A stretch of 64,000 bases of DNA from Parabacteroides faecis. Lineage in GTDB: Bacteria > Bacteroidota > Bacteroidia > Bacteroidales > Tannerellaceae. Where the stretch lies: NCBI RefSeq assembly GCF_014647375.1, contig NZ_BMPB01000007.1, positions 62,001 to 126,000 of the forward strand, read 5' to 3'. Of the stretch, positions 1 to 11,994 are shown piece by piece (the stretch's first letter is position 1; each line of letters opens with the position of its first letter). Position numbers and translations under genes: made by a program. A model generated the notes under the pieces. That model was not told the origin of the DNA and did no database searches. It saw only the letters and a program-made list of their open reading frames with translations.

Positions 1-1364
1 GTCAGGGTCGAACCGCTTTGAATGATTGTTATTTCCTGATCCTCTCCATTTACATCTATCTTAAAAGAGACTGATCTCTCTTCCGCTTTCGGATTGGCCT
101 CCACAGCCTTAAAGACGACATTGGCAGGCCCCTGATGTGTTATGGTTGCCCCCGGCTTGATCTCACTGCTGTCCAGCAAGGCTGACAACCAGAAAGGCAT
201 ATCGAATACCCACTGCTGTCCCGGACGGGCCGTGATCTGTATCTCTTTTTCACCGCCTTTCTTAGCGGGCATTCTGGTCGGATCTACCTCGATAGGAGGT
301 ATCTCACCGACAGTAATACGTTCGTCGGAAACGTCTATACCTATCAAAGTCACATTCATGGTATAGTGGGAATTGCGTACGATATCATAATTGTTCTTGT
401 CGCTACCGGGATAAAACCGGAACGTAACATCTTTATACGATACTCCACCCTGCACAGCCTCTCCGGTCAGTTCGATACAGGTTGCATTCGTCACCCCCGT
501 TCCAATCTTCTTTTTTTCAGCATCGACAGCATCAGCCCCGCTGACAGTACCCGCCATATTCTCAGGCAAATACCAGTAAACAGTCGCACCGGAACCACTC
601 GCCGTACCCGTATGTGTGGTATAACCGATACCATCCGTTGTCAACTGCGCTTTAGGAACTTCAATCTGCGACAGGGTCGGTGCGTTCTTTAAAACGACGG
701 AAGCCGGTTCAAATGTAAAATCACTACCTACCGAATAGGTAAACGTGATCTTGGCAATGAGACGGGTCAGTTCCACCGTAATATCTTTTATACCTTCAGC
801 CTGAACCACGCCCTCCCATTTCCCCATCATCTTACATAAGTTATTATCCGGCAATCCCTCAGCGGTTGAAGCATAAGCCAATGTATGCTTTTTTAAAGTC
901 GTTTCATCGGCTATCGCACCCAGATCACCGGCATTCGACACGAAATAAACACGGCTCTTACTGCCATCCTGGCTCTGTTTCAGTTTCAGGTTGAGAGTAG
1001 TACCGGTCATAGAAGGAAGATACTCATTCAGTAAACGCTTACCCGTCACCGCATCGTACTGTCCGACCCACAGGCTGGCTATCTGATTTTCCTGCACTTC
1101 CGATAACGGAGCAACAGCTTTGGTTTGTACCGAGTCCCTTGCTCCTACAGCCAGCGTATCCGAGTCGATCGTGCCGTCAGGTGTAAAAGTAATGCTACGG
1201 GTAACGGGAGTCCGGGTAGCCAACACATTCAGGTTAAAGCTGGCATCTACTTCTGCCAATGTATGCGGAGTAATTCCCCCTTCTTCTACTTCCGTCCGTG
1301 TACAACCGCCTGCAACCAACAGAAACAACAATACAAACAACCTTATTTTACTTACTCGTTTCAT
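1..1364 (-). CDS. Fimbrillin-type lipoprotein with C-terminal BACON-like domain (3' end outside window)
   Basis: The frame is open from the ATG at 1364 to the window edge, so the 3' end is missing. The N-terminus is a lipoprotein signal with lipobox VAGGC (Cys21), so the product should be an outer-membrane or fimbrial lipoprotein. An Arg-rich stretch (LATRTPVTRS) follows, resembling the protease-processing region of type V pilins. The middle has the beta-rich fimbrillin pattern (VELTRLIAKITFTY). The last part visible (KKGGEKEIQITARPG, then WVFDMPFWLS and a closing VSFKIDVNGEDQEITI) resembles a BACON domain, a glycan- or mucin-associated beta-sandwich. It is the last visible gene of the operon that starts at 9407. 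By position and domain fusion it may be a tip or accessory subunit; that role is inference. Confidence 0.75.
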   Translation of the reverse strand, partial: MKRVSKIRLFVLLFLLVAGGCTRTEVEEGGITPHTLAEVDASFNLNVLATRTPVTRSITFTPDGTIDSDTLAVGARDSVQTKAVAPLSEVQENQIASLWVGQYDAVTGKRLLNEYLPSMTGTTLNLKLKQSQDGSKSRVYFVSNAGDLGAIADETTLKKHTLAYASTAEGLPDNNLCKMMGKWEGVVQAEGIKDITVELTRLIAKITFTYSVGSDFTFEPASVVLKNAPTLSQIEVPKAQLTTDGIGYTTHTGTASGSGATVYWYLPENMAGTVSGADAVDAEKKKIGTGVTNATCIELTGEAVQGGVSYKDVTFRFYPGSDKNNYDIVRNSHYTMNVTLIGIDVSDERITVGEIPPIEVDPTRMPAKKGGEKEIQITARPGQQWVFDMPFWLSALLDSSEIKPGATITHQGPANVVFKAVEANPKAEERSVSFKIDVNGEDQEITIIQSGSTL

Positions 1365-1391: not shown

Positions 1392-2534
1392 CTATCTCCC
1401 TCCGACATTACCATTTCCAGTCCACATTATTTCCTTCCACGTCACAACCGTTACAGTCGTACCGATCCCTTCATTGATATCGGGATCAGGATAAGGGGTG
1501 TCGGGACTTCCCACATTATCGTCTGTGAAAACGACTGCATTCCAGTCCAGCACCTTCATCAGCAAGCTACTTTCGTTATTCTTCACCTCAAGGGTAAAAA
1601 TATAGCGTTTGCCTTCATCAAAAGTGATATTCTTGTCGATAGTCGCTTTCAGGGTTGCCGTTTCATCGTTCCTCACCACTTCAATCTCTACCTCGAAAGG
1701 CTGGCTGTCTTTGGGAAGGATAACTCCTTTCGTCTTGTTCAGCCCCGAATTGTCCGGATCGGATTCCGGTTCCACCGGTTCGAACTCCCCTTCAACGAAT
1801 GCGACCTGTGCATCCGTCCCGCTACCGCCTCCCGTAGGAAGGATACCTGTATCGCTGCCCGCTATCAGATCGGCTCCCGAAGAGGATATCTTTTTTATCA
1901 CCAGCCCCGTTCCGTACAGTTTCTCAAAAGAGGAGGCATTGTCGGGGGAAGGGGCAACATTGAATACCAACATCGCACATTTCCGCCGGAAAGTTCCGAG
2001 CGTAACCTGTTGTGAATCTTTCGTCACCGCCACCCCGCGAACAAAGCCTGTCATCACATCTTCCTTATGGGGGACACCTGTTATCTTATAATAGCCATCC
2101 TCCCCTTTTTGTAGCGGACGAGCCGGAGAAACGGCATAGAAATCGTAAACGCCTCCCCGTACGATCAACCCCTTGCCCTCTCCTTCCACCCGCTTTCCTT
2201 CGGAATCTACCAAGCAGGGTGACAAAGAACCGTCCGCTTTTACCACATAGGTGGCCTCAAACGTAGGTGCCTCCGTAGAGAAGGAAGCCTCTTGCAGTTC
2301 ACCGCCTACCTTACCGGTAAGCCACGCCCCGACACGTACGGTCGTCCCTACAGGTAAAAGGGTCGGTGACGGAGAAACAGTTTCCCCCGCACGGGTCAGG
2401 AGCTCCGGAACACCCAGGTCTGGCTTACCGAAACTGACCGCCACCAGCCGCGCTGTATCCGGCATCTCCTCTACCGGACCGGCTGTGCAACCGGCCAGTA
2501 ATCCTATCAGATATATCAAATACCGTTTCATCAT
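1392..2534 (-). CDS. Fimbrillin-type lipoprotein
   Basis: The 380-residue product starts with a short lipoprotein signal (IGLLAGC, Cys16). A candidate pilin-processing arginine lies at Arg48 (ELLTRAGE), followed by beta-rich sequence typical of FimA/Mfa-like subunits. The C-terminus has the VLDWNAV tryptophan segment seen at the end of fimbrillin domains and then a Pro/Asp-rich extension of about 40 residues. It lies 27 bp before the next operon gene and 33 bp after the previous one, so co-transcription is likely. ATGs at 2534 and 2531 are both possible starts. Whether it is a shaft, tip or accessory subunit cannot be told from sequence. Confidence 0.7.
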   Translation of the reverse strand: MMKRYLIYLIGLLAGCTAGPVEEMPDTARLVAVSFGKPDLGVPELLTRAGETVSPSPTLLPVGTTVRVGAWLTGKVGGELQEASFSTEAPTFEATYVVKADGSLSPCLVDSEGKRVEGEGKGLIVRGGVYDFYAVSPARPLQKGEDGYYKITGVPHKEDVMTGFVRGVAVTKDSQQVTLGTFRRKCAMLVFNVAPSPDNASSFEKLYGTGLVIKKISSSGADLIAGSDTGILPTGGGSGTDAQVAFVEGEFEPVEPESDPDNSGLNKTKGVILPKDSQPFEVEIEVVRNDETATLKATIDKNITFDEGKRYIFTLEVKNNESSLLMKVLDWNAVVFTDDNVGSPDTPYPDPDINEGIGTTVTVVTWKEIMWTGNGNVGGR

Positions 2535-2567
2535 TATAATGCTTTTATATAGTAACTGATAGTTCCT

Positions 2568-3683
2568 TTATTCCATCGGAATATCATACTCCCCGCCATC
2601 ATTCCAGCCTGCCACCCGGATATCTGTCAATTCAATCCCCTGCGCCTGCATGCGGATATTATAGATATAATTATATCCCTTCTCCCACTTGGCCGTAAAT
2701 GTGCCCGGATCAGTTCCGCTACTCCCGGACGGCTTCATCGCAAAGACACGGCCGTCATGCAGCGTCAGTTCCAATGTGGCACTCACATCTGTCACCGGAA
2801 TAACCAACCCGAAAGCCTGGACAGGCGTTTGACCGATTTCATCCGCTGTCTGTACACTTCCGATACCGCGCATATCCCCATCTGCCGTAAACATCAGTTG
2901 ATCGACTGCCGTCAGCGTACCTTCCAAACCGCCTGTCGAAAGGTTCAGTTTGGCGGAGGTAGACTTTTTAAATCCTCCGCTACTTTTCAGTACTACCTTC
3001 TTTATCAGGCAACCGTCAAAAGCCTCTCCCTCCTCCGATACGCGGAAGCTCACCTTTGCCAGCGCATGTTGCATCAGAAGCGACACCTCCGGATGCCAAC
3101 GGTCTACCTGCCCTGTCGCCTTACAGTAGAGATAATCATCCTGATCGGTTTCCCATTGAACATCGGTCGTAGCATCCACCGGATTACCACCGTCATTAAA
3201 GTAGAACTTCTGCTTATCCAGCACCTTGACACCACTCATCAACGGTACTTTCGGAGTTCCCGAAAGCGACACACTTTTCTCGGACGGAGTATAACCATAG
3301 ACTGTCCCTTTCTCCGTATACAGGCAAAGGGGATCCTCTCCTTCCGCCAACTCCCAAGCCGGTACGGCAGCAACGGCATTGTAAGTAAACGACTGGCTTT
3401 TGATGCCGCTCGCATAGAAACCCACTGTACCGCTACTACTCTCTTTGGTGACGCATACGCCTACGGATGTGAGCGGATTAGGGTTAGGTTCCTTATCGCC
3501 GGGACCTCCCGTTACAACGCTTCTCGATTCCACCTCCAACGACAAGCCCAGGCTCTTTATACTCAGAGGAACACCCTCTTCCGCATCACCGCCACCGGGC
3601 CCGGGCGGAACAATTTCCGCCTCGGTACAAGCTGCACACAGCAATAGAAACACAGTCGGTAATAGGTATAAGAACTTTTTCAT
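2568..3683 (-). CDS. Fimbrillin-type lipoprotein
   Basis: This 371-residue lipoprotein has lipobox LCAAC (Cys19) and a Gly/Pro-rich linker. Its candidate processing site ESRSVVTGG around Arg54 matches sites in neighbouring genes. The conserved fimbrillin core motif appears as MQHALAKVSFRV, and the protein ends VAGWNDGGEYDIPME, very like the ends of the two upstream subunits (AWVDNEQDEIPL, AWTDHEQDDMPI). The shared ending marks a paralogous set within one operon. Family knowledge: Bacteroidales type V pilins are secreted as lipoproteins, cleaved after a basic residue by an outer-membrane protease and assembled by strand exchange. Confidence 0.8.
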   Translation of the reverse strand: MKKFLYLLPTVFLLLCAACTEAEIVPPGPGGGDAEEGVPLSIKSLGLSLEVESRSVVTGGPGDKEPNPNPLTSVGVCVTKESSSGTVGFYASGIKSQSFTYNAVAAVPAWELAEGEDPLCLYTEKGTVYGYTPSEKSVSLSGTPKVPLMSGVKVLDKQKFYFNDGGNPVDATTDVQWETDQDDYLYCKATGQVDRWHPEVSLLMQHALAKVSFRVSEEGEAFDGCLIKKVVLKSSGGFKKSTSAKLNLSTGGLEGTLTAVDQLMFTADGDMRGIGSVQTADEIGQTPVQAFGLVIPVTDVSATLELTLHDGRVFAMKPSGSSGTDPGTFTAKWEKGYNYIYNIRMQAQGIELTDIRVAGWNDGGEYDIPME

Positions 3684-3706
3684 GGGCTGTACTTTTTATG
3701 GAGTTA

Positions 3707-5017
3707 TTATAATGGGATTTCGTCCTGTTCGTTATCGACCCAGGCTTCTACCGCTACATCCACAACAGTCAGCTTGTTACGACCAGCCGAGAACGTATAG
3801 ATATAATTGTTACCAGCTTCCCAGGTGTTTCCCTGCAGAGTGATCGGATAAACGACTGCTGTATTTGAACCTTCCTGCAACGTGATTTCCACATCTATCT
3901 CATTATCGTCGAAAGTCGCTATCGGGTAAATTACCGCACTGACTGTCCGGGATACATTCTTTCCGTTTATCGAAGAGGTAGAAGTTCCTGTTGAAATAAA
4001 AGCATGTTCACCTTCTGTTCCTTCCTCGTCTATCTGTCTCATCAATATATAGTTTGTTACCGTACGGGACATACCGGTAGTAGTCGATGTTCCTGTGATC
4101 GCTCCGTCTGTCAATGCCATCATTCCATCTCCTGTCTTAAACTGATTTGAACCGCCGGTATGATTTTTAACTTCGAATTTGGTGAAGTTCACGTCCTTAT
4201 CGCTCAGATGTCCCCCATCATACACACGAAACGAAATCATTGCCATAGCATGTTTCATATCCAAATTGATCTTATAACCCGGATTATTTTCGTTTGTATT
4301 ATCCGGATCTGCATCCGGCGCAACGGGAGTCTGTCCACTGGCACGTCCGTTATTGACATTACGGCCCGCCTCTCCGGCAAAATACAGGTAGTCTTTTTCT
4401 GTTGAGAGTGAAAGGTTAACCAGATCGGCCTTAGCTGTCGCCGCCCATGCATTGGTTTTCCAATATTTTTTTGCATTGTTTGCTGTGGCATCGATTTCAC
4501 CGCTAGCGAGAACTTTTACCGGAATTTTAAGGTCGGATTCTCTGCTTATAGATAGTGAAATACTTGAATTATAGGGATAATAAGCATACACCTTGCCGAC
4601 CTCTTTTGTCAGATAATAAGGAACTTCTTTTGTTGATTCATAAGTATCTTTCTTTTCCTTAATCGAAATCCAGTTCTTTCCTGTATCATCACCCATATAC
4701 CAGACATGGTGACCTGTATATTCTGTTCCGTCGGGCATGTACCAGCCGGTTGCTCCGCTGTTTGTTACCAATACACCCAATCCCGGAGCATAATCAGAAC
4801 TGGTGAATTGTTTTACAGGATAAGTGATTGTTTCACCGCTTACTACCGATTTCGTTGCTGCTTTGGTTCCCGCATCCACTTTCAGGTTGGGAGTGATACC
4901 TAAAGATACCTGACCGTCGTTACCCGGTTCAGGGTCTATTCCTGTTTCTGTCTCCGAGCAGCTTGTCGCTGTCAGAAGGGCTATCAACATAACCCACATT
5001 GTCTTAGTTGTTTTCAT
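3707..5017 (-). CDS. Fimbrillin-type lipoprotein, probable major subunit
   Basis: I chose the ATG at 5017 rather than further upstream. It gives a clean lipoprotein signal (LLTATSC, Cys20) and is preceded by an AAAGGAAA ribosome-binding sequence. The 436-residue product has the fimbrillin motif MKHAMAMISFRV and the C-terminal AWVDNEQDEIPL. At the position where paralogues carry Arg, the processing motif reads TKSVVSGE with Lys56, so processing may need a protease accepting lysine. It is the largest complete pilin-like gene here, hence a guess at the shaft subunit. Upstream and downstream genes are within about 35 bp. Confidence 0.78.
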   Translation of the reverse strand: MKTTKTMWVMLIALLTATSCSETETGIDPEPGNDGQVSLGITPNLKVDAGTKAATKSVVSGETITYPVKQFTSSDYAPGLGVLVTNSGATGWYMPDGTEYTGHHVWYMGDDTGKNWISIKEKKDTYESTKEVPYYLTKEVGKVYAYYPYNSSISLSISRESDLKIPVKVLASGEIDATANNAKKYWKTNAWAATAKADLVNLSLSTEKDYLYFAGEAGRNVNNGRASGQTPVAPDADPDNTNENNPGYKINLDMKHAMAMISFRVYDGGHLSDKDVNFTKFEVKNHTGGSNQFKTGDGMMALTDGAITGTSTTTGMSRTVTNYILMRQIDEEGTEGEHAFISTGTSTSSINGKNVSRTVSAVIYPIATFDDNEIDVEITLQEGSNTAVVYPITLQGNTWEAGNNYIYTFSAGRNKLTVVDVAVEAWVDNEQDEIPL

Positions 5018-5051
5018 TTTCCTTTGTTTTAAAGTGTTTCTATTTAATATT

Positions 5052-6026
5052 TTATATCGGCATATCATCCTGTTCATGATCCGTCCAGGCTTCCACACCG
5101 ACAGATGTGGTCTGTATCTGGCTTTTATCTGTAAAGAAGAGGGTTACGACATGGCTTTTACCTGTCTGGAAACCGTCTTCGATATGGAAAGAGACTTCCG
5201 AAACTGTTTCATCTTCAGTTCCCCTGCCGTCTTTCGTCGTTGTTATCCGAAGGTGCAACGGGTGTTCTACTGTTCCGTCCACCGGAGAAACCGGGAGCAA
5301 GAGATATCCTTGCGGTTCGGGAAGATCTTCGCCGGCTGTTACCTCCGGGACCGGCAAGTTTGTTATATCCTGTACCGGGATATTTTTTATTCCATCATCT
5401 GACGATATATCATCCAAATGGGGAATCTCCTGTTCCAGATCCAGTTCCTGACGTGCATGTACGTCTACCGCTTCAATCATTTTTATTATTCCCCACCCAT
5501 CAGCACGGTCACTGTAACAAACCAAACGCACCTGTGTCAGTAAATGATGGAACGTACAGGTTTGTATCGGGGCATACCCACTACCCGTCAGGATTCCCGT
5601 TGACATAATATCGGTTGTACCATCCACTATAAAGGTCACTTTGCCCGTTCCTGCAACGACTCCCGACTCACCCTTTACCGGACAATAGCCGTGCAGGCGG
5701 ATATGACGACCATCCTCCGGGTATGACTGGGACTCGACAAACACGATCGGACGGTTCCCCTTACCTCCTGTTCGTACCGCCTCATATCTGTTCCACATGC
5801 CATAACTTTCTGTCGAAACGATCGTTTCATCCTGCCGGGCAAAGCAAACCTCTAAATCCTTTTCATAGCCGGAGCCAATCACTCCGCGCGTTGATTGTCC
5901 GATCGCCCCTTCCAGGCAGACCGCAGTTTCCGGGACTGGCTCCGGAGTAGGATTGCTGTCTGAACAGGCGGTGAGACCCGGAAGGATAGCGATGGATATG
6001 AATGCTGTTACTATGAAGTTGTTCAT
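5052..6026 (-). CDS. Fimbrillin-type lipoprotein
   Basis: The 324-residue product has a lipoprotein signal ending PGLTAC (Cys21). The candidate processing motif STRGVIGSGYE around Arg47 is almost the same as in the next gene upstream (ATRAVISGGYV). The fimbrillin core appears as CTFHHLLTQVRLVC, and the protein ends VGVEAWTDHEQDDMPI. Only 10 bp separate it from the upstream gene, so translation is probably coupled. With the 6037-6996 gene it forms a close paralogous pair (shared FARxD, AVRTGGxGN and HLLTQ segments), suggesting local duplication and divergence. Confidence 0.8.
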   Translation of the reverse strand: MNNFIVTAFISIAILPGLTACSDSNPTPEPVPETAVCLEGAIGQSTRGVIGSGYEKDLEVCFARQDETIVSTESYGMWNRYEAVRTGGKGNRPIVFVESQSYPEDGRHIRLHGYCPVKGESGVVAGTGKVTFIVDGTTDIMSTGILTGSGYAPIQTCTFHHLLTQVRLVCYSDRADGWGIIKMIEAVDVHARQELDLEQEIPHLDDISSDDGIKNIPVQDITNLPVPEVTAGEDLPEPQGYLLLPVSPVDGTVEHPLHLRITTTKDGRGTEDETVSEVSFHIEDGFQTGKSHVVTLFFTDKSQIQTTSVGVEAWTDHEQDDMPI

Positions 6027-6036
6027 GACTTTACGG

Positions 6037-6996
6037 TTACTTTCCGGGAGTTATTATTGTACTGCCATTATTACCCGGTTGCCATTCGGCGATACCGGTT
6101 TCTACCGCTATTTTACCATCCTCCGTAAAGGTGAGTGTGATAAGGTGGGAATAACCCGCTTTCACACCTTCGCTGATATTGGAGACGGTAACATCCAATA
6201 TTTTAGGACTCCCGTCATAAGTTCCTTTCACCTCTAAACCGATAGGTAAATCTTCTGTTCCCAGATTGACTGTTGGGTAAAGCAACAGATAGCCGGTCGA
6301 AGGTTTTTCAGCATCCGGGGCAGAAACTGTAGAAGGACAGTTTTTAACCGTTAGCGTTTGGTTGGCTGTTCCTGTTGCCGTCAGTTGAGCACCCTTGGTT
6401 TTATCGAGTGATAGTTTCAATCCCGTTGCTACATTCTTTACTTTGATGGAAGTTATCGCCGTCCATTTATCTATCGCTCCTGCAGAACCTGTACACCTGA
6501 ACTGCAATTGGGTTAACAGATGGCTGAAGGTGAAAGTCTCGAACTTATTCACCAGCGAACCGGTCTGAACTCCTGTTGCCATTATATCCTCCTCACCCGT
6601 GATAGTGTAAGTGACACTGACCGGGTTAGTAGTTCCGCTGTTCAACGTCTTGCGGGGATAGTAACCGATCAGGACAGACTCACCATCTTCCGTCAAATAG
6701 GTTTGCTCCGGTTCAAATGTAAGAACCGTGTTACCTGTACCTCCTGTACGGACTGCATCGATAGATGGGGTATTCCACACCGAACCTGTGGTACCCGGGT
6801 TATCCAGGCGGGCGAACGAGACTTCCAGGTCATTCACATAACCGCCGCTGATCACTGCACGGGTAGCCTCCGCTATTCCCGCATTCACTTCTATTGCTTG
6901 CGCCGTTCCATCCGTTACCGGCTCTTCCGTATTGGTACAACCGCCTAAGAAAGTAGTTCCCAACAGACTCATGATCAATAATTTTCCTGTTTTCAT
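6037..6996 (-). CDS. Fimbrillin-type lipoprotein
   Basis: The 319-residue product has lipobox FLGGC (Cys20) and a putative pilin-processing site EATRAVISGGYV at Arg46. Its core motif TFSHLLTQLQFRC and segment AVRTGGTGNTVL are shared with the downstream paralogue at 5052-6026. The C-terminus has the fimbrillin tryptophan segment (VETGIAEWQPG). The ATG at 6996 directly opens the signal peptide. It is 25 bp from the preceding FimB-like gene, in operon with the whole cluster. Subunit position in the pilus is unknown. Confidence 0.8.
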   Translation of the reverse strand: MKTGKLLIMSLLGTTFLGGCTNTEEPVTDGTAQAIEVNAGIAEATRAVISGGYVNDLEVSFARLDNPGTTGSVWNTPSIDAVRTGGTGNTVLTFEPEQTYLTEDGESVLIGYYPRKTLNSGTTNPVSVTYTITGEEDIMATGVQTGSLVNKFETFTFSHLLTQLQFRCTGSAGAIDKWTAITSIKVKNVATGLKLSLDKTKGAQLTATGTANQTLTVKNCPSTVSAPDAEKPSTGYLLLYPTVNLGTEDLPIGLEVKGTYDGSPKILDVTVSNISEGVKAGYSHLITLTFTEDGKIAVETGIAEWQPGNNGSTIITPGK

Positions 6997-7021: not shown

Positions 7022-7969
7022 TTAAGGAGTAACTACACCCGAACCGTCACTGCCCGGTTTCCAGTCCGTCAGCGTAATCGTCAAACCACTTATTTCATCA
7101 TAGCGGACAACCAGGTCTAGTATCACATGTGTCGTGACAGTTGCAGTGAATGCATCTTTCACCTCTTCCGTTATATCCGTAGATGAAGCAACCTCGCTCC
7201 CATCCGCCAGCGTCATCATCAAACTAAGGTCGACAGATTCTTTGCCTTCCTCTTCTTCCTCACCCGGGGATAAACCGAACAGACTCAGCGAAGAGGCATA
7301 CACACCCGGACTGACCTCTTCCGGTTCAAACGTCATAAAAGCAGGCGTATCGAACAGCGGCTTGCCGGAAGGTATATGAACCCGTGAAGAAACACCGGTC
7401 AACCTTCCCGACAAGACCGCAGGAACGACATCATCCTTATCTCCTCCTGTGACCTTTATATTCATTTCCAATGTACGGACAAGGTTTGCAGGAGTTAATT
7501 CTTTCGCTACCGTTTCACCCCCGACTACCTCGATCTGTTCCAGACCTGTGCCGTACAAGCTACCCGGACAGGCAATCTGTACGGAACTTGATTTTAACGA
7601 AGAAAGTTGTTGTGCTCTGCCGCAGGCTTCCTCATACCCCTTCTCCATTTCAAGCGTGACACCTGTACAACCTGTATTACAGACTGCAACCCGGTAACGC
7701 CCCAAAGGCAACGTGCCCTCATATCCCGAAGCATCCCCCGTACGCATTAGCGGACTTTCTGAATCTTCCGGATAGAAATACCAGGTCATATTATCCGGGC
7801 AACTATTGTCTGACCTTCGAAGCAGCAAACGTACTTTTCCGTTCTTTTCCCAATCCTCGTCAGTCATACGGTAGGCACAGGACGATACCGCCATAATCCA
7901 TGCGGCACTGATCAGCCAAACGGCTACCTGTATCATTACATATCTTTTATTTCTTTTATCTCTTTCCAT
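7022..7969 (-). CDS. FimB/Mfa2-like (DUF5119-type) fimbrial lipoprotein
   Basis: The 315-residue product has a long N-region and lipobox AVSSC (Cys31). The mature start (RMTDEDWEKNGKVRLLLRR, then MTWYFYPED) fits the DUF5119 / FimB-Mfa2-like proteins that sit second in Bacteroidales fimbrial operons. FimB and Mfa2 are known to anchor pili to the outer membrane and limit their length; that role is inferred here. No arginine processing motif of the neighbouring pilin type is evident, consistent with an anchor that keeps its lipid. A strong Shine-Dalgarno (GGAGGTA) lies 5 bases before the ATG, unusual for this phylum. Confidence 0.65.
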   Translation of the reverse strand: MERDKRNKRYVMIQVAVWLISAAWIMAVSSCAYRMTDEDWEKNGKVRLLLRRSDNSCPDNMTWYFYPEDSESPLMRTGDASGYEGTLPLGRYRVAVCNTGCTGVTLEMEKGYEEACGRAQQLSSLKSSSVQIACPGSLYGTGLEQIEVVGGETVAKELTPANLVRTLEMNIKVTGGDKDDVVPAVLSGRLTGVSSRVHIPSGKPLFDTPAFMTFEPEEVSPGVYASSLSLFGLSPGEEEEEGKESVDLSLMMTLADGSEVASSTDITEEVKDAFTATVTTHVILDLVVRYDEISGLTITLTDWKPGSDGSGVVTP

Positions 7970-7979
7970 AAAATACCTC

Positions 7980-9407
7980 CTATCTGATTTGAAAACGATA
8001 TGATAAGCTGATCTTTAAACCGACCATAAACCCCGTCGATGCAAAACGGGTTTCCAGATAATTACGGTTATCAAGCGGATCATACCGGTATTTCTTTCCA
8101 CTGAAAACGGAGCGGTAACCGGCACAGACACGCATACCTACTCCAAAACCACCGACCAGAGAGAAGCGATAACCCATCGACAGTCCTGCCGACCAGAAAC
8201 AACCTGTCCGCCCGTACAGCATATCTTCCGACAGGTCGATCGCGCTTCCACGCACATCAAAATCTCCGTATTCGGCAAACAAGCCGGTATTCAATCCGGT
8301 AAATCTCCCTAAAGAAGATAGCCAGATAGTAGGTTCGAGAGATATTTCGGACACAGCCCAACAGTCACGCGTCTTGTCTTTATAGGCAAAGTCGGAATAT
8401 ATGCCGGACAAAGCAACCGACCAACGACCGGAGAAACAACACTCCACTTCCAGGTTCGGCATGAATGCACCCGTTTCTATTTTGGTATCACCGGTTCCTA
8501 AACGGATCGATGGGACTACACCGCACCAGGAAAGAAGGTTCGTTTTCACAGCCAGATATACAGGGCTTTGCTTCACCGGAGTTTCTTCCATCCTCACAGA
8601 TTCGGTTGACCGTTTTTGTCCCTCGGGAATAACTTCTTTGCCGACTGTATTTTTCTGTTTTGTCACCACCCGCACTGTTTCCCTGGTTGTTACGGTAGTG
8701 GCTAAAGCAATGTCCGGCTCTTCTGTCCGTTTACTATGATGTACCGTATCTGTTACAGAAGCCAAATGGTAATCTTCCAGTTCCGTACGATCGAAAAGGG
8801 GATCGTCAATACGGTACACTTCACGGTCATAACCTCCTGTCTCACCACGACGGTACAGGTCTACATAAGGAACTGCACCATATTCACCGATGGCGGCCGC
8901 TACCGCTACCGGATAACGGCTTTCACTGTAATGGATCGAGATATTTGCAAACCAAGGAAGTGGTTTATATACCTTATAGACATGTACCTGATCGCGATAG
9001 TTTCCGCTACGGTCGATATAAAAGGCAACACAATCATGAGGAATATCGAAACGGGTTTTCAGGTAGGCACGGATACGACCCGCACGCAATGAGGCTTCGT
9101 TCACAACCTCTTTATCTTCGTATTCATAGGCATTCACATGCGAGACGATCAAAAGGTGGCAATCGCCTTTCAGGATTTGGTCGCGGGATGCGTCGAGTAA
9201 ACCGCCCATCCGTTCCAGTTGATAAGCGTTGTCTCCGTAGTCGGCAAGGAACAGGTCATTATCCTGGCGGAAAGAGAAAAGGAACGATTCTGCCTTATAA
9301 TAGGTCGTAGTCTGGGCATCCGCTCCTATCCCCAAAAGGAAGTTGAGCAGTAACAGGAAGATTGTTCTTACCTGTATTTTCCGGTGTGGACCTTTTATCC
9401 TATACAT
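7980..9407 (-). CDS. OmpA/DUF3575-type outer membrane protein, first gene of fimbrial operon
   Basis: I chose the ATG at 9407 because it gives a signal peptide (FLLLLNFLLGIGADAQ); an in-frame start at 9473 would add 22 atypical residues. The 475-residue product has an OmpA-like periplasmic segment (LLIVSHVNAYEYEDKEVV, then LRAGRIRAYL) and a C-terminal beta-barrel of the DUF3575 type beginning VYLAVKTNLLSW and ending in an aromatic YRFQI. Proteins of this kind open many Bacteroidales fimbrial operons and may help assembly or anchoring to peptidoglycan. No promoter-like sequence is visible between this gene and the inverted repeat at 9480, so transcription probably depends on the invertible segment. 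Confidence 0.7.
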   Translation of the reverse strand: MYRIKGPHRKIQVRTIFLLLLNFLLGIGADAQTTTYYKAESFLFSFRQDNDLFLADYGDNAYQLERMGGLLDASRDQILKGDCHLLIVSHVNAYEYEDKEVVNEASLRAGRIRAYLKTRFDIPHDCVAFYIDRSGNYRDQVHVYKVYKPLPWFANISIHYSESRYPVAVAAAIGEYGAVPYVDLYRRGETGGYDREVYRIDDPLFDRTELEDYHLASVTDTVHHSKRTEEPDIALATTVTTRETVRVVTKQKNTVGKEVIPEGQKRSTESVRMEETPVKQSPVYLAVKTNLLSWCGVVPSIRLGTGDTKIETGAFMPNLEVECCFSGRWSVALSGIYSDFAYKDKTRDCWAVSEISLEPTIWLSSLGRFTGLNTGLFAEYGDFDVRGSAIDLSEDMLYGRTGCFWSAGLSMGYRFSLVGGFGVGMRVCAGYRSVFSGKKYRYDPLDNRNYLETRFASTGFMVGLKISLSYRFQIR

Positions 9408-9427
9408 ATTAATATATAATACCAGTT

Positions 9428-9443
9428 TGTTCAATATTGAACA
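9428..9443. promoter_or_regulatory. 16-bp perfect palindrome in the leader of the fimbrial operon
   Basis: TGTTCAATATTGAACA is a perfect 16-bp palindrome located 21 bp upstream of the first fimbrial gene, between it and the left inverted repeat. It would lie in the 5' leader of the ON-state transcript. It looks like an operator for a dimeric regulator; no regulator is assigned. Confidence 0.4.
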
Positions 9444-9479
9444 GTGACTATGATTATCAATAACTCTCTGCAAATGTTC

Positions 9480-9897
9480 ACCTTATTTATATAATAAGGG
9501 TAGAGGGTGAAAAAAGCCCTTTCCCGAAGAACCTCCTTAGGGAGTTTTTAGGGTAAAAAATGAAGGATTGATGTCTTTTTGAGTCTTTTTGGAGGAAGAA
9601 ACGGAACTGTGGAAATAGCAGTTTTCTCTTAACAGATTAAAAAACGATAGCAGTCCCAGCCCGTCTTATGCCACCTTGTAATGAAAATCATATTCTATGG
9701 CTAAAAAATAGGTTAACTTGTGAAATTTAGTAAAATAAATATGCTTTTTTTAAGAAAACACCCTACACTCCTTGTTTTTTCATTTTTTTCTTCTTACGTT
9801 TGCCACGTACTTCATTACAATTCAGGATTTTTCTTATTTATAAGACACTGATTGTAAGATAGAAAGAGGATGTTCTCCCTTATTATATAAATAAGGT
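9480..9897. repeat. Invertible promoter segment (phase-variable switch) bounded by 21-bp inverted repeats
   Basis: The left repeat (9480-9500) and right repeat (9877-9897) are perfect reverse complements over 21 bp (left arm ACCTTATTTATATAATAAGG plus G). Each repeat is itself a recombinase-like site: CCTTATT and AATAAGG flank a 5-bp TATAT centre. The 376 bp between them hold no gene. They contain one clear Bacteroidota promoter and a small hairpin (CTCC-TTAG-GGAG then T5, 9533-9549). A tyrosine recombinase gene ends exactly at the right repeat and a fimbrial operon lies on the left. This is the layout of known phase-variable promoters in Bacteroides and Parabacteroides. Inversion itself has not been observed here. 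Confidence 0.85.
9772..9802 (+). promoter_or_regulatory. Promoter inside the invertible segment, pointing away from the fimbrial operon
   Basis: The -33 TTG (9772-9774), a 20-bp spacer and -7 TACGTTTG (9795-9802) match the Bacteroidota sigma-70-type consensus. Transcription would start near 9807 and run right, toward the 3' end of the recombinase gene, so the fimbrial operon is OFF as sequenced. After inversion the start would map near 9570 and give a leader of about 160 nt before the ATG at 9407. No TAnnTTTG element is present on the other strand of the segment. Confidence 0.75.
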
Positions 9898-10815
9898 TTA
9901 CCCCACCCGCAAATAGCAGCCGATCGTCTCAGAAACCTGCCTATTTGCTTTGGCAACTTCCGATACGTCAAACTCCTTTAAATAGATACGGGTTGTCCTT
10001 TCCGACGTATGTCCCAGTGCCTGGCTAATCACACCGATAGGTACATGCAGGTGATACGCCTCCGAAGCCCAGGCATGACGGAACGAATAGGTCGTCAACG
10101 TCTCCGGTAAATCCAGCATCACACTGATATCTTTCAGGTACCGGTTTTCCGTTGCCAGACAGGCTTTATACTGTTCGTGGGTCATATCTTCCGACAATAC
10201 CGGAAAAAGATAGTGCCGCTCTGCACTGCGGTAGCGGTCGATAAGCATCTGCATCTCCGCCGACACTTCCATTCGGATCAGCACCCCCGTCTTCTGACGA
10301 CGGTATTCCAGCACCGTACCGTTCTCCACCAGGTTCTCGCCTGTCAGATGCACGATATCCACAAAAGGGATACCGCAAGCAAGGAAAGTAAACAGTGCCA
10401 GATCGGCTGCCAGTTGCTTGGCCGGTTCCTTTTTCAGATCGAGCGAAGCGATCTTCTTTATCACTTCCACCGGCACAGCCCGTTTACGTGTCTCCTCCCG
10501 TTTCAGCCTCAGCCCGGCAAAAGGTGATCTCTCCTGCCGTCCCTTGCCGAACGGCAAAGCACGGTTATACATCGCCCGAAGGCAACTAAGGTAGCTGTTC
10601 ACCGTATTGACACGCAACCCTTTCCTCTGCAGCCACAACTGGAAGTCCTGCACGAGTTCCGCCGTCACATCCTTATGTGCCGGCCCCACATCTGTGATAA
10701 AGCATTCGAAATGGTTCCGCACAGCTCTATACAGATCGGCGGTACTCTCATCTCCCCGCCTACGTTTATCCTGTTCCTGCGTCGCCATCAGCCCGCAAAA
10801 ATCTTTTCTCTTCAT
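9898..10815 (-). CDS. Tyrosine recombinase (promoter invertase) with Arg I replaced by Cys
   Basis: The ATG at 10815 follows a GGAGGAAG Shine-Dalgarno, so I prefer it to in-frame ATGs at 10833 and 10866; this gives 305 residues. The N-terminal half is a SAM-like DNA-binding domain; the catalytic half has the Lys motif RRQKTG, the Arg II block YSFRHAWAS (Tyr instead of the usual HxxR His, common in Bacteroidales invertases), LGHTSERTT and the nucleophile in RIYL. The segment FTFLACGIPFVDIVHL aligns with the Arg I block (F-x-RG-M/I-x-FVD), but codon 147 is TGC (Cys) rather than CGC (Arg). The stop codon abuts the right inverted repeat, so its natural substrate is almost certainly that switch. 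Confidence 0.85.
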   Translation of the reverse strand: MKRKDFCGLMATQEQDKRRRGDESTADLYRAVRNHFECFITDVGPAHKDVTAELVQDFQLWLQRKGLRVNTVNSYLSCLRAMYNRALPFGKGRQERSPFAGLRLKREETRKRAVPVEVIKKIASLDLKKEPAKQLAADLALFTFLACGIPFVDIVHLTGENLVENGTVLEYRRQKTGVLIRMEVSAEMQMLIDRYRSAERHYLFPVLSEDMTHEQYKACLATENRYLKDISVMLDLPETLTTYSFRHAWASEAYHLHVPIGVISQALGHTSERTTRIYLKEFDVSEVAKANRQVSETIGCYLRVG

Positions 10816-10942
10816 AACTCTTCCTCCATTCATTTTCAGATTGATCAAAAAGATAAAGATAAACATTCCCCCCTTTCAAAATGTTCGTTTTTCACCTCCC
10901 CGGCTAACAGCACTCCCCACTCAAATCCTTGTTCCATAGGAA

Positions 10943-10950
10943 CAAACCTA
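10943..10950 (-). promoter_or_regulatory. Possible -7 element for the recombinase gene
   Basis: TAGGTTTG on the minus strand matches TAnnTTTG, about 130 bp upstream of the recombinase ATG. No convincing -33 TTG is seen at the right distance, so activation by a factor bound upstream would be plausible. The 22-bp-periodic array begins about 50 bp further upstream. Confidence 0.35.
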
Positions 10951-10996
10951 CCTCACCGCCCCGTTTCCCTCCCTTCATCCCCGTTCTTTCCGGAGA

Positions 10997-11096
10997 TCAT
11001 TGCAATGATTCTCCCCCATCATCACAATCTCCCCACGAAGTCATCACAATGACTCCGCACACTCATCACAATGAAGGGGGGTAATCATTGTGATGA
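10997..11096. repeat. Iteron-like array: 12-bp near-palindrome repeated five times at exact 22-bp spacing
   Basis: Copies start at 10997, 11019, 11041, 11063 and 11085: TCATTGCAATGA, TCATCACAATCT, TCATCACAATGA (twice) and TCATTGTGATGA, the last in inverted sense. The 10-bp spacers differ. Decayed half-copies in the same phase occur at 10975 (TCATC) and 10953 (TCAC). A further copy out of phase is at 11256 (ACATTGCAATGA). A 22-bp step is about two helical turns, placing all sites on one DNA face, as expected for cooperative binding of a regulator. The rest of 10816-11478 shows no gene. Confidence 0.7.
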
Positions 11097-11298
11097 AAAA
11101 TTTAACACTGCTAAATATCGGGGAATTTCCTTCGGGGTTGTACTCTGAAGCCGAGTTGATAGGACTTTTATAAAGCCAGATACTCTTTTGAATGATTCGT
11201 TTTCATTTGACAGATTGCAGCAGGTTTGATCTTATCTCTGTCACCTGTTCTAAAAACATTGCAATGATTGCATTTCCACCAACCCAAACATCTCCGCC

Positions 11299-11349
11299 AA
11301 AAAGAAAATCCCCTCAATCCGTCATCACTAAACTCCGGATCAAGGGGAT
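11299..11349 (-). terminator. Rho-independent-type terminator after the GNAT gene
   Basis: Arms 11308-11321 and 11336-11349 pair as ATCCCCT/AGGGGAT plus ATCCG/CGGAT with a two-base internal mismatch and a 14-nt loop. On the minus strand the stem is followed by TTTCTTTTT. It lies about 130 bp after the stop codon at 11479. Confidence 0.55.
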
Positions 11350-11478
11350 AAATGCTTTTGAATAGTCCTTCGCCTTGGTAGATGCCAAAGAAAAGGTATA
11401 TGAATTAACAGAATGTCAATTCGTCAATATCGGGTGGAATACTGAACCCAAGTATTGTAATATTCATAATTGAATGAT

Positions 11479-11994
11479 TTAACGATCTATTATTACTTTT
11501 CTATAGTCTCCGTCGCTTTTCTTCTGAAAGCCATTTCTCAGTAATACCTTTATAGAAATGATATTTTCCTCCACTGGATCTGCTGCAATTTCTTTGCCTC
11601 CGATTTCAACAAGTTTTTCCTCCAACATCTGAATAATCCTTTTGCCAAGACCTTTATTCAAATATTCCTCCTCACCGATCAGATAACCAATTTCAAATGT
11701 ATGATTTTCCTCTACTACATCTCCATACAGTGCATTAAAATCATGCCCGTCTTCTTCCAAATCTTTCAAGAAAAAGCAATCAGTATAAAGACAATACCCA
11801 ATCCTCTGATCCTCATGGCAAACAATAAAGTGCTTTAAGAAATCATATTTCCCGTCTCTTTCCCTTATCTCATCCAGCCAATCCTCTTTATCACCAAACC
11901 ATTTCCATATATACTCCTTATCCAACCATTTATTAAAATATGGAATATCTTCATCCATCAGAGGTTTTAATACAAGTTCTTTCTTATTTATCAT
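11479..11994 (-). CDS. GNAT-family N-acetyltransferase
   Basis: The ATG at 11994 (MINKKELV) is chosen; an in-frame start at 12042 would add 16 residues unlike the family. The 171-residue product looks like a single GNAT fold of the AAC(6')-like or RimJ-like kind: an opening LVLKPLMDEDIPYFNKWL, the central FEIGYLIGEEEYLNKGLGKRI acetyl-CoA-binding segment, then NIISIKVLLRNGFQK. It should transfer an acetyl group from acetyl-CoA to an amine; the substrate cannot be told. It resembles aminoglycoside acetyltransferases loosely, but resistance should not be assumed. It stands 97 bp from the upstream DUF4143 gene. Confidence 0.75.
   Translation of the reverse strand: MINKKELVLKPLMDEDIPYFNKWLDKEYIWKWFGDKEDWLDEIRERDGKYDFLKHFIVCHEDQRIGYCLYTDCFFLKDLEEDGHDFNALYGDVVEENHTFEIGYLIGEEEYLNKGLGKRIIQMLEEKLVEIGGKEIAADPVEENIISIKVLLRNGFQKKSDGDYRKVIIDR

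Follow-up and report, generated by a model that had tools for sequence, protein, structure and literature searches.

The type V pili of gut Bacteroidales remain poorly understood; if and when they are switched on should bear on adhesion and biofilm behaviour. The window analysed here, a stretch of 64,000 nucleotides from a Parabacteroides faecis genome of 6.66 Mb in 33 contigs, carries a putative pilus operon and a tyrosine recombinase gene, with a segment of 418 bp between them that begins and ends in inverted repeats. This arrangement raises the question of whether the segment is a promoter that the recombinase inverts, and of what holds it in the orientation in which it is found. An invertible-promoter (phase-variation) switch of the pilus operon is, in our assessment, very probable.

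Table 1. Features of the pilus operon, the putative switch and the recombinase region, in window positions
Feature	Position	Strand	Remarks
Tip-like protein, 5' part	1..1364	-	1008 aa in all; continues past the window to G000:C7:60338
Mfa_like_2 / Mfa_like_1 fimbrillin	1392..2534	-	
Mfa_like_1 fimbrillin	2568..3683	-	
Mfa_like_1 fimbrillin	3707..5098	-	
Fimbrillin paralogue of 6037-6996	5052..6026	-	34% identical; lipobox TAC; no Pfam match of its own
Mfa_like_1 fimbrillin	6037..6996	-	lipobox GGC
DUF5119 protein	7022..7969	-	translation shows a lipoprotein-like signal
First operon gene, DUF3575 at C-terminus	7980..9407	-	475 aa
Leader, distal arm to first operon gene	9408..9479	-	72 nt; no Bacteroidales promoter above 6 of 9
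Left (operon-side) recombination site, putative	9480..9500	+	21-bp palindromic arm
Putative invertible segment	9501..9876	.	376 bp between arms; orientation common to 17/17 subfamily loci
Bacteroidales-type promoter TTG-N20-TACGTTTG	9772..9802	+	points away from the operon (OFF)
Right (recombinase-side) recombination site, putative	9877..9897	-	perfect inverted copy of the left arm
Tyrosine recombinase	9898..10815	-	305 aa when read from ATG; a start at 10866 would give a longer protein
Array of five 12-bp palindromes, TCATTGYRATGA type	10997..11096	-	phased at 22 bp; fourth degenerate
Remote copy of the array palindrome	11256..11267	-	171 bp upstream of the array

Arms, promoter and neighbouring genes

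An earlier note on this DNA had described perfect 21-bp inverted repeats at 9480-9500 and 9877-9897 and a recombinase gene touching the right one. Both observations are borne out to the base: the arms are 100% complementary and 376 nt apart, and the recombinase stop codon abuts the right arm. They are the sole perfect inverted repeat of at least 13 nt at a distance of 150-800 nt in the window, and the longest inverted repeat among 60 dinucleotide-preserving shuffles was 16 nt, so the arms are beyond chance. Each arm is in addition a palindrome of its own, CCTTATT-TATAT-AATAAGG, with a spacer of 5 bp. The core sites of tyrosine recombinases have the same layout, in which two half-sites flank a spacer.

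Bacteroidales promoters follow the consensus TTG-N19..21-TANNTTTG. The segment contains one full match to it (9 of 9), whose TTG lies 126 nt from the recombinase-side end, and few non-arm positions of the segment are as well conserved as its -33 and -7 elements. In the operon direction, the best score inside the segment is 7 of 9, and nothing exceeds 6 of 9 from 60 nt before to 90 nt past the outer end of the distal arm. Two weak minus-strand matches to the E. coli sigma-70 promoter in the leader (9480-9453 and 9460-9433) are at chance level, as 5 such matches were found in 9000-11500 and 4.5 are expected. The single internal promoter that the earlier note saw reading away from the operon is therefore confirmed, as is its statement that no other promoter stands between the repeat and the first fimbrial gene, and by promoter position and direction it was right to call the orientation OFF. 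A search of 9300-11600 against Rfam returned two matches, with E values of 0.39 and 0.57, that are far under the gathering scores.

Judged from its genes alone, the operon has the parts of a type V pilus operon, namely fimbrillin-like lipoprotein pilins and a tip protein with a C-terminal domain. Five fimbrillin-like genes lie in 1392-6996, and Pfam reports Mfa_like matches in four of them. The tip-like protein contains DUF4906, BACON and a borderline Lcl_C domain (34.1 bits, cut-off 34.9). Its C-terminal 150 amino acids matched only three other searched modules, at 30-34% identity, in a comparison in which several of the fetched stretches end before this part of the gene. A diversity-generating retroelement acting on the tip protein was considered and rejected, as the genome's only RVT_1 match, in a frame of 586 amino acids, is on another contig (C21).

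The recombinase matches Phage_int_SAM_5 and Phage_integrase (PF00589, above the cut-off). Its catalytic set includes the beta-hairpin lysine, Arg II, the LGH box and the nucleophilic tyrosine, and K175, R246, H269 and Y278 are invariant in an alignment of 11 recombinases. The canonical Arg I of the RKHRHY set is absent, with G-I-P in place of G-L-R, and the first histidine of the set is replaced by tyrosine. Aligned members of the family, including those beside inverted segments and L040, a distant relative, likewise have G-[MIL]-[PAST] at the Arg I place and tyrosine for the first histidine. The CTnDOT integrase also lacks Arg I, which is reported to be functionally replaced by another arginine (PMC8138268).

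Module copies and inversion among relatives

In the window's genome, two copies of the repeat core spaced 397 bp apart are found at three places: in the window, on contig C3 (segment at 184333-184750) and on contig C11 (segment at 177839-178256). At the latter two the pair likewise lies between a recombinase gene and an operon of the same kind. The three 418-bp segments are 95-96% identical, have identical sites and all face the same way with respect to their operons. In five genomes of the genus we find 17 such modules (the three above, five in G022, four each in G024 and G019, and one in G004), which we treat as a subfamily. Their segments are 411-421 bp in whole length, with the promoter at a fixed place and the sites inverted, and a recombinase gene is next to the segment in all 17. 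Two conserved stretches of the segment (~241-264 and ~318-333, counted in the recombinase sense) align well throughout most of the subfamily, whereas segments outside it match them no better, or hardly better, than background. The recombinases are 63-75% identical to that of the window where measured, and 99% identical in the orthologue, L031 of G022; those of L104-L107 were assigned by profile score only. By similarity to the window's first operon gene, the first gene in these modules encodes a DUF3575 protein (from Pfam for L105 and L107, and by inspecting the translation for L104 and L106).

Sixteen of the 17 recombinases are conserved and free of internal stop codons. In L037 (G004:C77) the recombinase gene is broken by a stop codon and the operon genes also look broken; its segment is still in the OFF orientation. 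A search for the paired-core pattern in 124 genomes of the family recovered 15 of the 17 modules and none outside the five genomes. The window's genome has two further loci: on C1 (L011) the recombinase is 45% identical to that of the window and is followed downstream by an HU-DNA-binding/DUF4469 protein and then a protein of 1153 amino acids without a Pfam match, and on C23 (L120) a tandem helix-turn-helix (HTH) gene and a fimbrillin gene lie downstream. Public genome contigs yielded one distant relative, L040, which is without inverted repeats, and no relatives were found in public viral contigs.

Module parts differ in which relatives they resemble most. At the DNA level, the window's recombinase gene is 96-99% identical to that of orthologue L031 and 68-89% identical to those of paralogues L009, L010 and L030. 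The distal pilin genes, from ~4.9 kb after the first arm, are 92-100% identical to the orthologue, and to the paralogues 52-88% identical up to 8.8 kb, with one stretch at 37% relative to L030. By contrast, in the last third of the switch the paralogues are the closer, at 97-98% identity versus 89% for the orthologue. For the first operon genes, identity to orthologue or paralogues is mostly 88-97%, with one stretch at 74-75% relative to L010 and L030. Because the switch is nearer to the paralogues while the recombinase and the distal pilins are nearer to the orthologue, switch and operon front are homogenised among the modules compared, presumably by gene conversion, and by the same identities the recombinases and distal pilins stay different. 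Three modules with homogenised switches and different distal pilins would therefore give this bacterium at least three switchable types of pilus. With three homologous modules here and one to five in four related genomes, each with its own recombinase and switch, the modules would give a cell a choice of alternative pili to display or conceal.

The wider recombinase family comprises at least 97 matches in 33 of the 124 genomes, with at most 18 candidates scored per genome. We examined 55 loci, which are 54 of the 97 listed matches (the 56 best less two) and L040. When the half-sites alone, TTATT-N5-AATAA, are sought between 60 nt before and 900 nt past the recombinase end, a proximal and a distal site are found in 46 of the 55 loci; the background of this pattern is 0.13 per kb of fetched DNA. 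Spacers differ between loci (TATAT, TGTGA, TATGT, TATGA, TATGG, CGCGA and others), and in all 46 site pairs the two spacers are reverse-complementary to each other. This regular pairing is explained by selection for the spacer identity that strand exchange needs. Among the nine remaining loci, three have a proximal site followed by the contig end and L122 has distal sites only. No half-sites were found within the same range at L040, L086, L102, L114 or L116; the perfect pair of L086 is made of another half-site.

Two further observations concern the architecture of these loci. The core has additional copies, at a distance of 23-34 bp from the first, at one end of the segment or at both in L088, L089, L093, L095, L108, L109, L112, L119 and L121. 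At five loci the first gene after the switch encodes 365-428 amino acids (L120:7965-9065, L121:7924-9204, L089:5600-6886, L093:5978-7075 and L117:8683-9780). The proteins of L120 and L121, the two that were scanned, have HTH matches at several places along their length, and a tandem-HTH regulator inside the switched operon is a possible reading of these matches.

Direct signs of inversion come from comparing all segments with one another after orienting them by their recombinase. Three pairs align over the full length in opposite orientation with both flanks collinear, the inversion lying exactly between the arms. In L094/L095 the flanks are 96.6 and 96.7% identical and the inverted segment 82%; in L089/L121 the flanks are 79 and 75% identical and the segment 75%; and in L099/L100 the flanks are 88 and 85% identical (the second over 172 nt to the contig end) and the segment 83%. 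Four other pairs, with partial minus-strand matches of 30-46 nt, were left out of this count. DUF3575, DUF3868 and fimbrillin genes follow the switch in L095, with near-identical translations in L094, and in L089 and L121 a further gene (tandem HTH in L121) precedes DUF3575 and DUF3868. Thus two of the three inverted pairs control DUF3575-DUF3868 operons, with a fimbrillin shown for L095, and comparison of these genomes establishes inversion in the wider family, including at a type V pilus operon.

A census of 48 segments with perfect arms of at least 13 nt beside a recombinase gene reveals a marked preference for one state. A promoter scoring 8 or 9 of 9 lies 93-128 nt from one arm in 34 segments; the background is 16 of 514 slots of ~50 nt. 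Classified by promoters of this score whose TTG is 85-135 nt from the arm through which they fire, 32 segments are OFF (toward the recombinase), two are ON (toward the operon, L095 and L100), and 14, those with no promoter at the canonical place, are unclassified. Two census segments, L102 and L116, have no core half-sites; of these, L116 is one of the 32 that count as OFF. The 32 OFF segments are not independent and form 27, 18 or 13 groups at 90, 75 and 65% segment identity. All 17 segments of the window's subfamily are OFF, and neither an ON copy nor an inverted alignment was found among them. OFF is therefore strongly favoured in assembled genomes, and the all-OFF subfamily, together with the 32 of 34 classifiable segments that are OFF overall, speaks against a fast random switch here. 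Such uniformity also suggests that these pili may be missed in ordinary cultures.

Proposed switch mechanism, its control and alternative explanations

These observations support the earlier note's proposal that the type V pili encoded here are phase-variable: the locus has the full anatomy of a switch, the module occurs 17 times, and three pairs of relatives are inverted. We infer that the same reaction takes place at 9480-9897. The recombinase would exchange strands at the two palindromic sites, whose 5-bp spacers are identical, and so invert the segment. In the ON state, the internal promoter would read through the distal arm and the 72-nt leader into the DUF3575-DUF5119-fimbrillin operon, whose product would be a type V-like pilus. 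In the OFF state, the promoter would read through the right arm and antisense into the recombinase gene, leaving the operon without a recognised promoter. Promoter and arm are separated by the same leader in either orientation, so antisense reading into the recombinase is expected in OFF and could stabilise that state. Low recombinase expression, antisense transcription, directional recombination and selection in culture are all candidate causes of the OFF bias.

The segment might control the recombinase as well as the pilus operon, with OFF antisense locking the state in a manner like that of fimE. This idea is compatible with the invertible-promoter reading, and we consider it rather unlikely. 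The promoter faces the 3' end of the recombinase gene in 32 of 34 classifiable loci, and the leader read through in ON would also be read into the recombinase in OFF. A precedent is the E. coli fim switch, in which inversion is described as attaching or detaching a terminator of fimE, with a strong OFF bias when FimE is present (PMC9993118). However, there is no consistent orientation-dependent terminator among the 17 subfamily segments. Hairpin-plus-T candidates of -2.5 kcal/mol or lower for the recombinase transcript occur in 10 of the 17 in the ON direction and 9 of the 17 in the OFF direction, counts taken without a shuffle control. These candidates are scattered, mostly weak and found in both directions, and we therefore reject a fimE-type orientation-dependent intrinsic terminator as the general mechanism; the search covered intrinsic terminators only.

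The least expected part of the locus is the palindrome array upstream of the recombinase gene. It is present in 11 of the 16 subfamily loci scanned (L037 lies outside the scan). In these 11 loci, 40 spacings are exactly 22 bp and three are 21 bp, and every one of the 11 also has the remote palindrome, 171-173 bp upstream of the array. Among divergent loci, the array sites are 88-89% identical versus 51-53% for the linkers between them. The TCATTGYRATGA-type array was not found in the other five scanned loci, which include L032 and L035. In a scan that presupposes no motif, four or more phased copies occur in 8 of 55 upstream regions versus 0 of 330 shuffles, and exactly three in 10 of 55 versus 8 of 330. 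The same scan finds other motifs in phase, in three copies at L032 and L037 and in four at L119, and L035 has, by eye, a similar phased pattern with another motif.

The genomic distribution of the array is mixed. All six exact 22-bp repeats of its 8-bp core in the window's genome are at the three recombinases. In G022, 7 of 11 such repeats are at recombinases, and the other 4 of 11 are at two places with no recombinase within 1.5 kb. These two places, L146 (G022:C8:80.9 kb) and L161 (G022:C8:1042.7 kb), retain the array but only the first ~116 and ~25 bp, respectively, of a recombinase gene; similarity to the L010 module extends across the array and stops at these points. L146 and L161 are therefore apparent remnants of lost pilus modules. 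Away from any such recombinase, the array's motif pair also turns up in G030, a genome of this genus, and in seven belonging to other genera. Recombinase-free occurrences of the ATTGTGAT pair at 22-bp spacing include L140, L148, L153, L156, L159 and L162 in G045, and L135, L147 and L152 in G082. In other genera the ATTGTGAT pair is possibly a dispersed repeat or the site of a general regulator. Because the pair also occurs without a related recombinase, the array may serve as an operator through which the recombinase is regulated, or it may be a dispersed repeat that was recruited here. The tandem-HTH protein was considered as the reader of the array, but in the scan the five loci listed with its gene (L089, L093, L117, L120 and L121) show no array upstream of their recombinase; it is a lead at most.

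A stronger proposal is that a dedicated DNA-binding regulator acts at the array and the remote site and restrains the recombinases of at least three modules until a cue frees them all at once, with antisense transcription reinforcing OFF between cues. The presence of the array in 11 of 16 loci, the conservation of its sites over its linkers and the confinement of the repeats in the window's genome to recombinases are consistent with such coordination. Nevertheless, five of the 16 loci are without the motif, and the same pair stands apart from recombinases in other genera and, in one case, in this genus; we regard the proposal as unlikely. If it were true, the pilus switches of the subfamily would not be independent coin-flips. 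The array in any case offers a concrete handle for finding what turns the recombinases on.

The uniform orientation of the subfamily could also mean that the switch is frozen, either as a relic or locked OFF, with the operon silent or driven by an unrecognised promoter. A single orientation in 17 of 17 loci and the interrupted recombinase of L037 would fit this explanation. However, the two arms of a locus keep identical spacers even though spacers vary from locus to locus, 16 of the 17 recombinases are conserved without an internal stop, and the promoter elements are among the best conserved positions outside the arms. Moreover, the Tsr19 system of B. fragilis is described as having a comparable OFF bias and yet it switches (PMC4747536). 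We consider a frozen switch very unlikely.

That the recombinase instead belongs to a mobile element, with the repeats as its ends or integration target and the promoter incidental, is extremely unlikely: a tyrosine recombinase, modules at several places and the two apparent module remnants kept in G022 would suit such an element, but in the subfamily the sites are inverted and delimit segments of 411-421 bp in whole length, which have a promoter at a fixed place and stand between recombinase and pilus operon, the segments carry no cargo gene, and relatives are found inverted.

Comparison with known invertible promoters

By its repeats, promoter and adjoining recombinase, the locus appears to belong with the known invertible promoters (invertons) of gut Bacteroidales. 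Weinacht et al. 2004 reportedly described a phase-variable locus of B. fragilis of the outer-surface-protein or fimbrial type. Such a locus of B. fragilis is described in a review as containing an ORF that matches a fimbrial N-terminal sequence, although fimbriae could not be shown (PMC12632263); the likeness to the present locus is one of description only. In gut Bacteroidota more broadly, fimbrillin genes and tyrosine invertases are reported to be enriched at inverton groups, and one tyrosine invertase family is consistently oriented such that the promoter cannot drive it (PMC11892184). The window shares both the nearby fimbrillin genes and a tyrosine invertase in the non-regulatable orientation. 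The main text of that paper does not contain the string AATAAG and does not name Parabacteroides, and inversion sites have been reported for Parabacteroides distasonis elsewhere (PMC5903667).

A near parallel is B. fragilis Tsr19 (BF2766), which, as reported, inverts IVp-I, a promoter immediately downstream of it; the ON state made up 1.03% in a mouse inoculum, and six of seven stool samples were OFF (PMC4747536). The likeness is one of arrangement, in that both have a tyrosine recombinase, an adjoining downstream invertible promoter, a surface operon and a strong OFF bias. They differ in that Tsr19 is described as controlling an exopolysaccharide operon and a distant promoter, whereas each switch here has its own recombinase and a pilus operon. 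The E. coli fim switch (fimS with FimB and FimE) likewise has a short invertible promoter, with a recombinase gene on one side and a fimbrial operon on the other, and an OFF bias (PMC9993118). However, its fimbriae are of another class, it uses two recombinases and not one, and the fimE-type terminator has no consistent counterpart here.

Capsule switches with 20-bp repeats 289-290 bp apart are reported at several places in one gut Bacteroidales genome (PMC12118408). Features of the present locus in its own right are the multiplicity of its modules, their uniform OFF state and the phased palindrome array.
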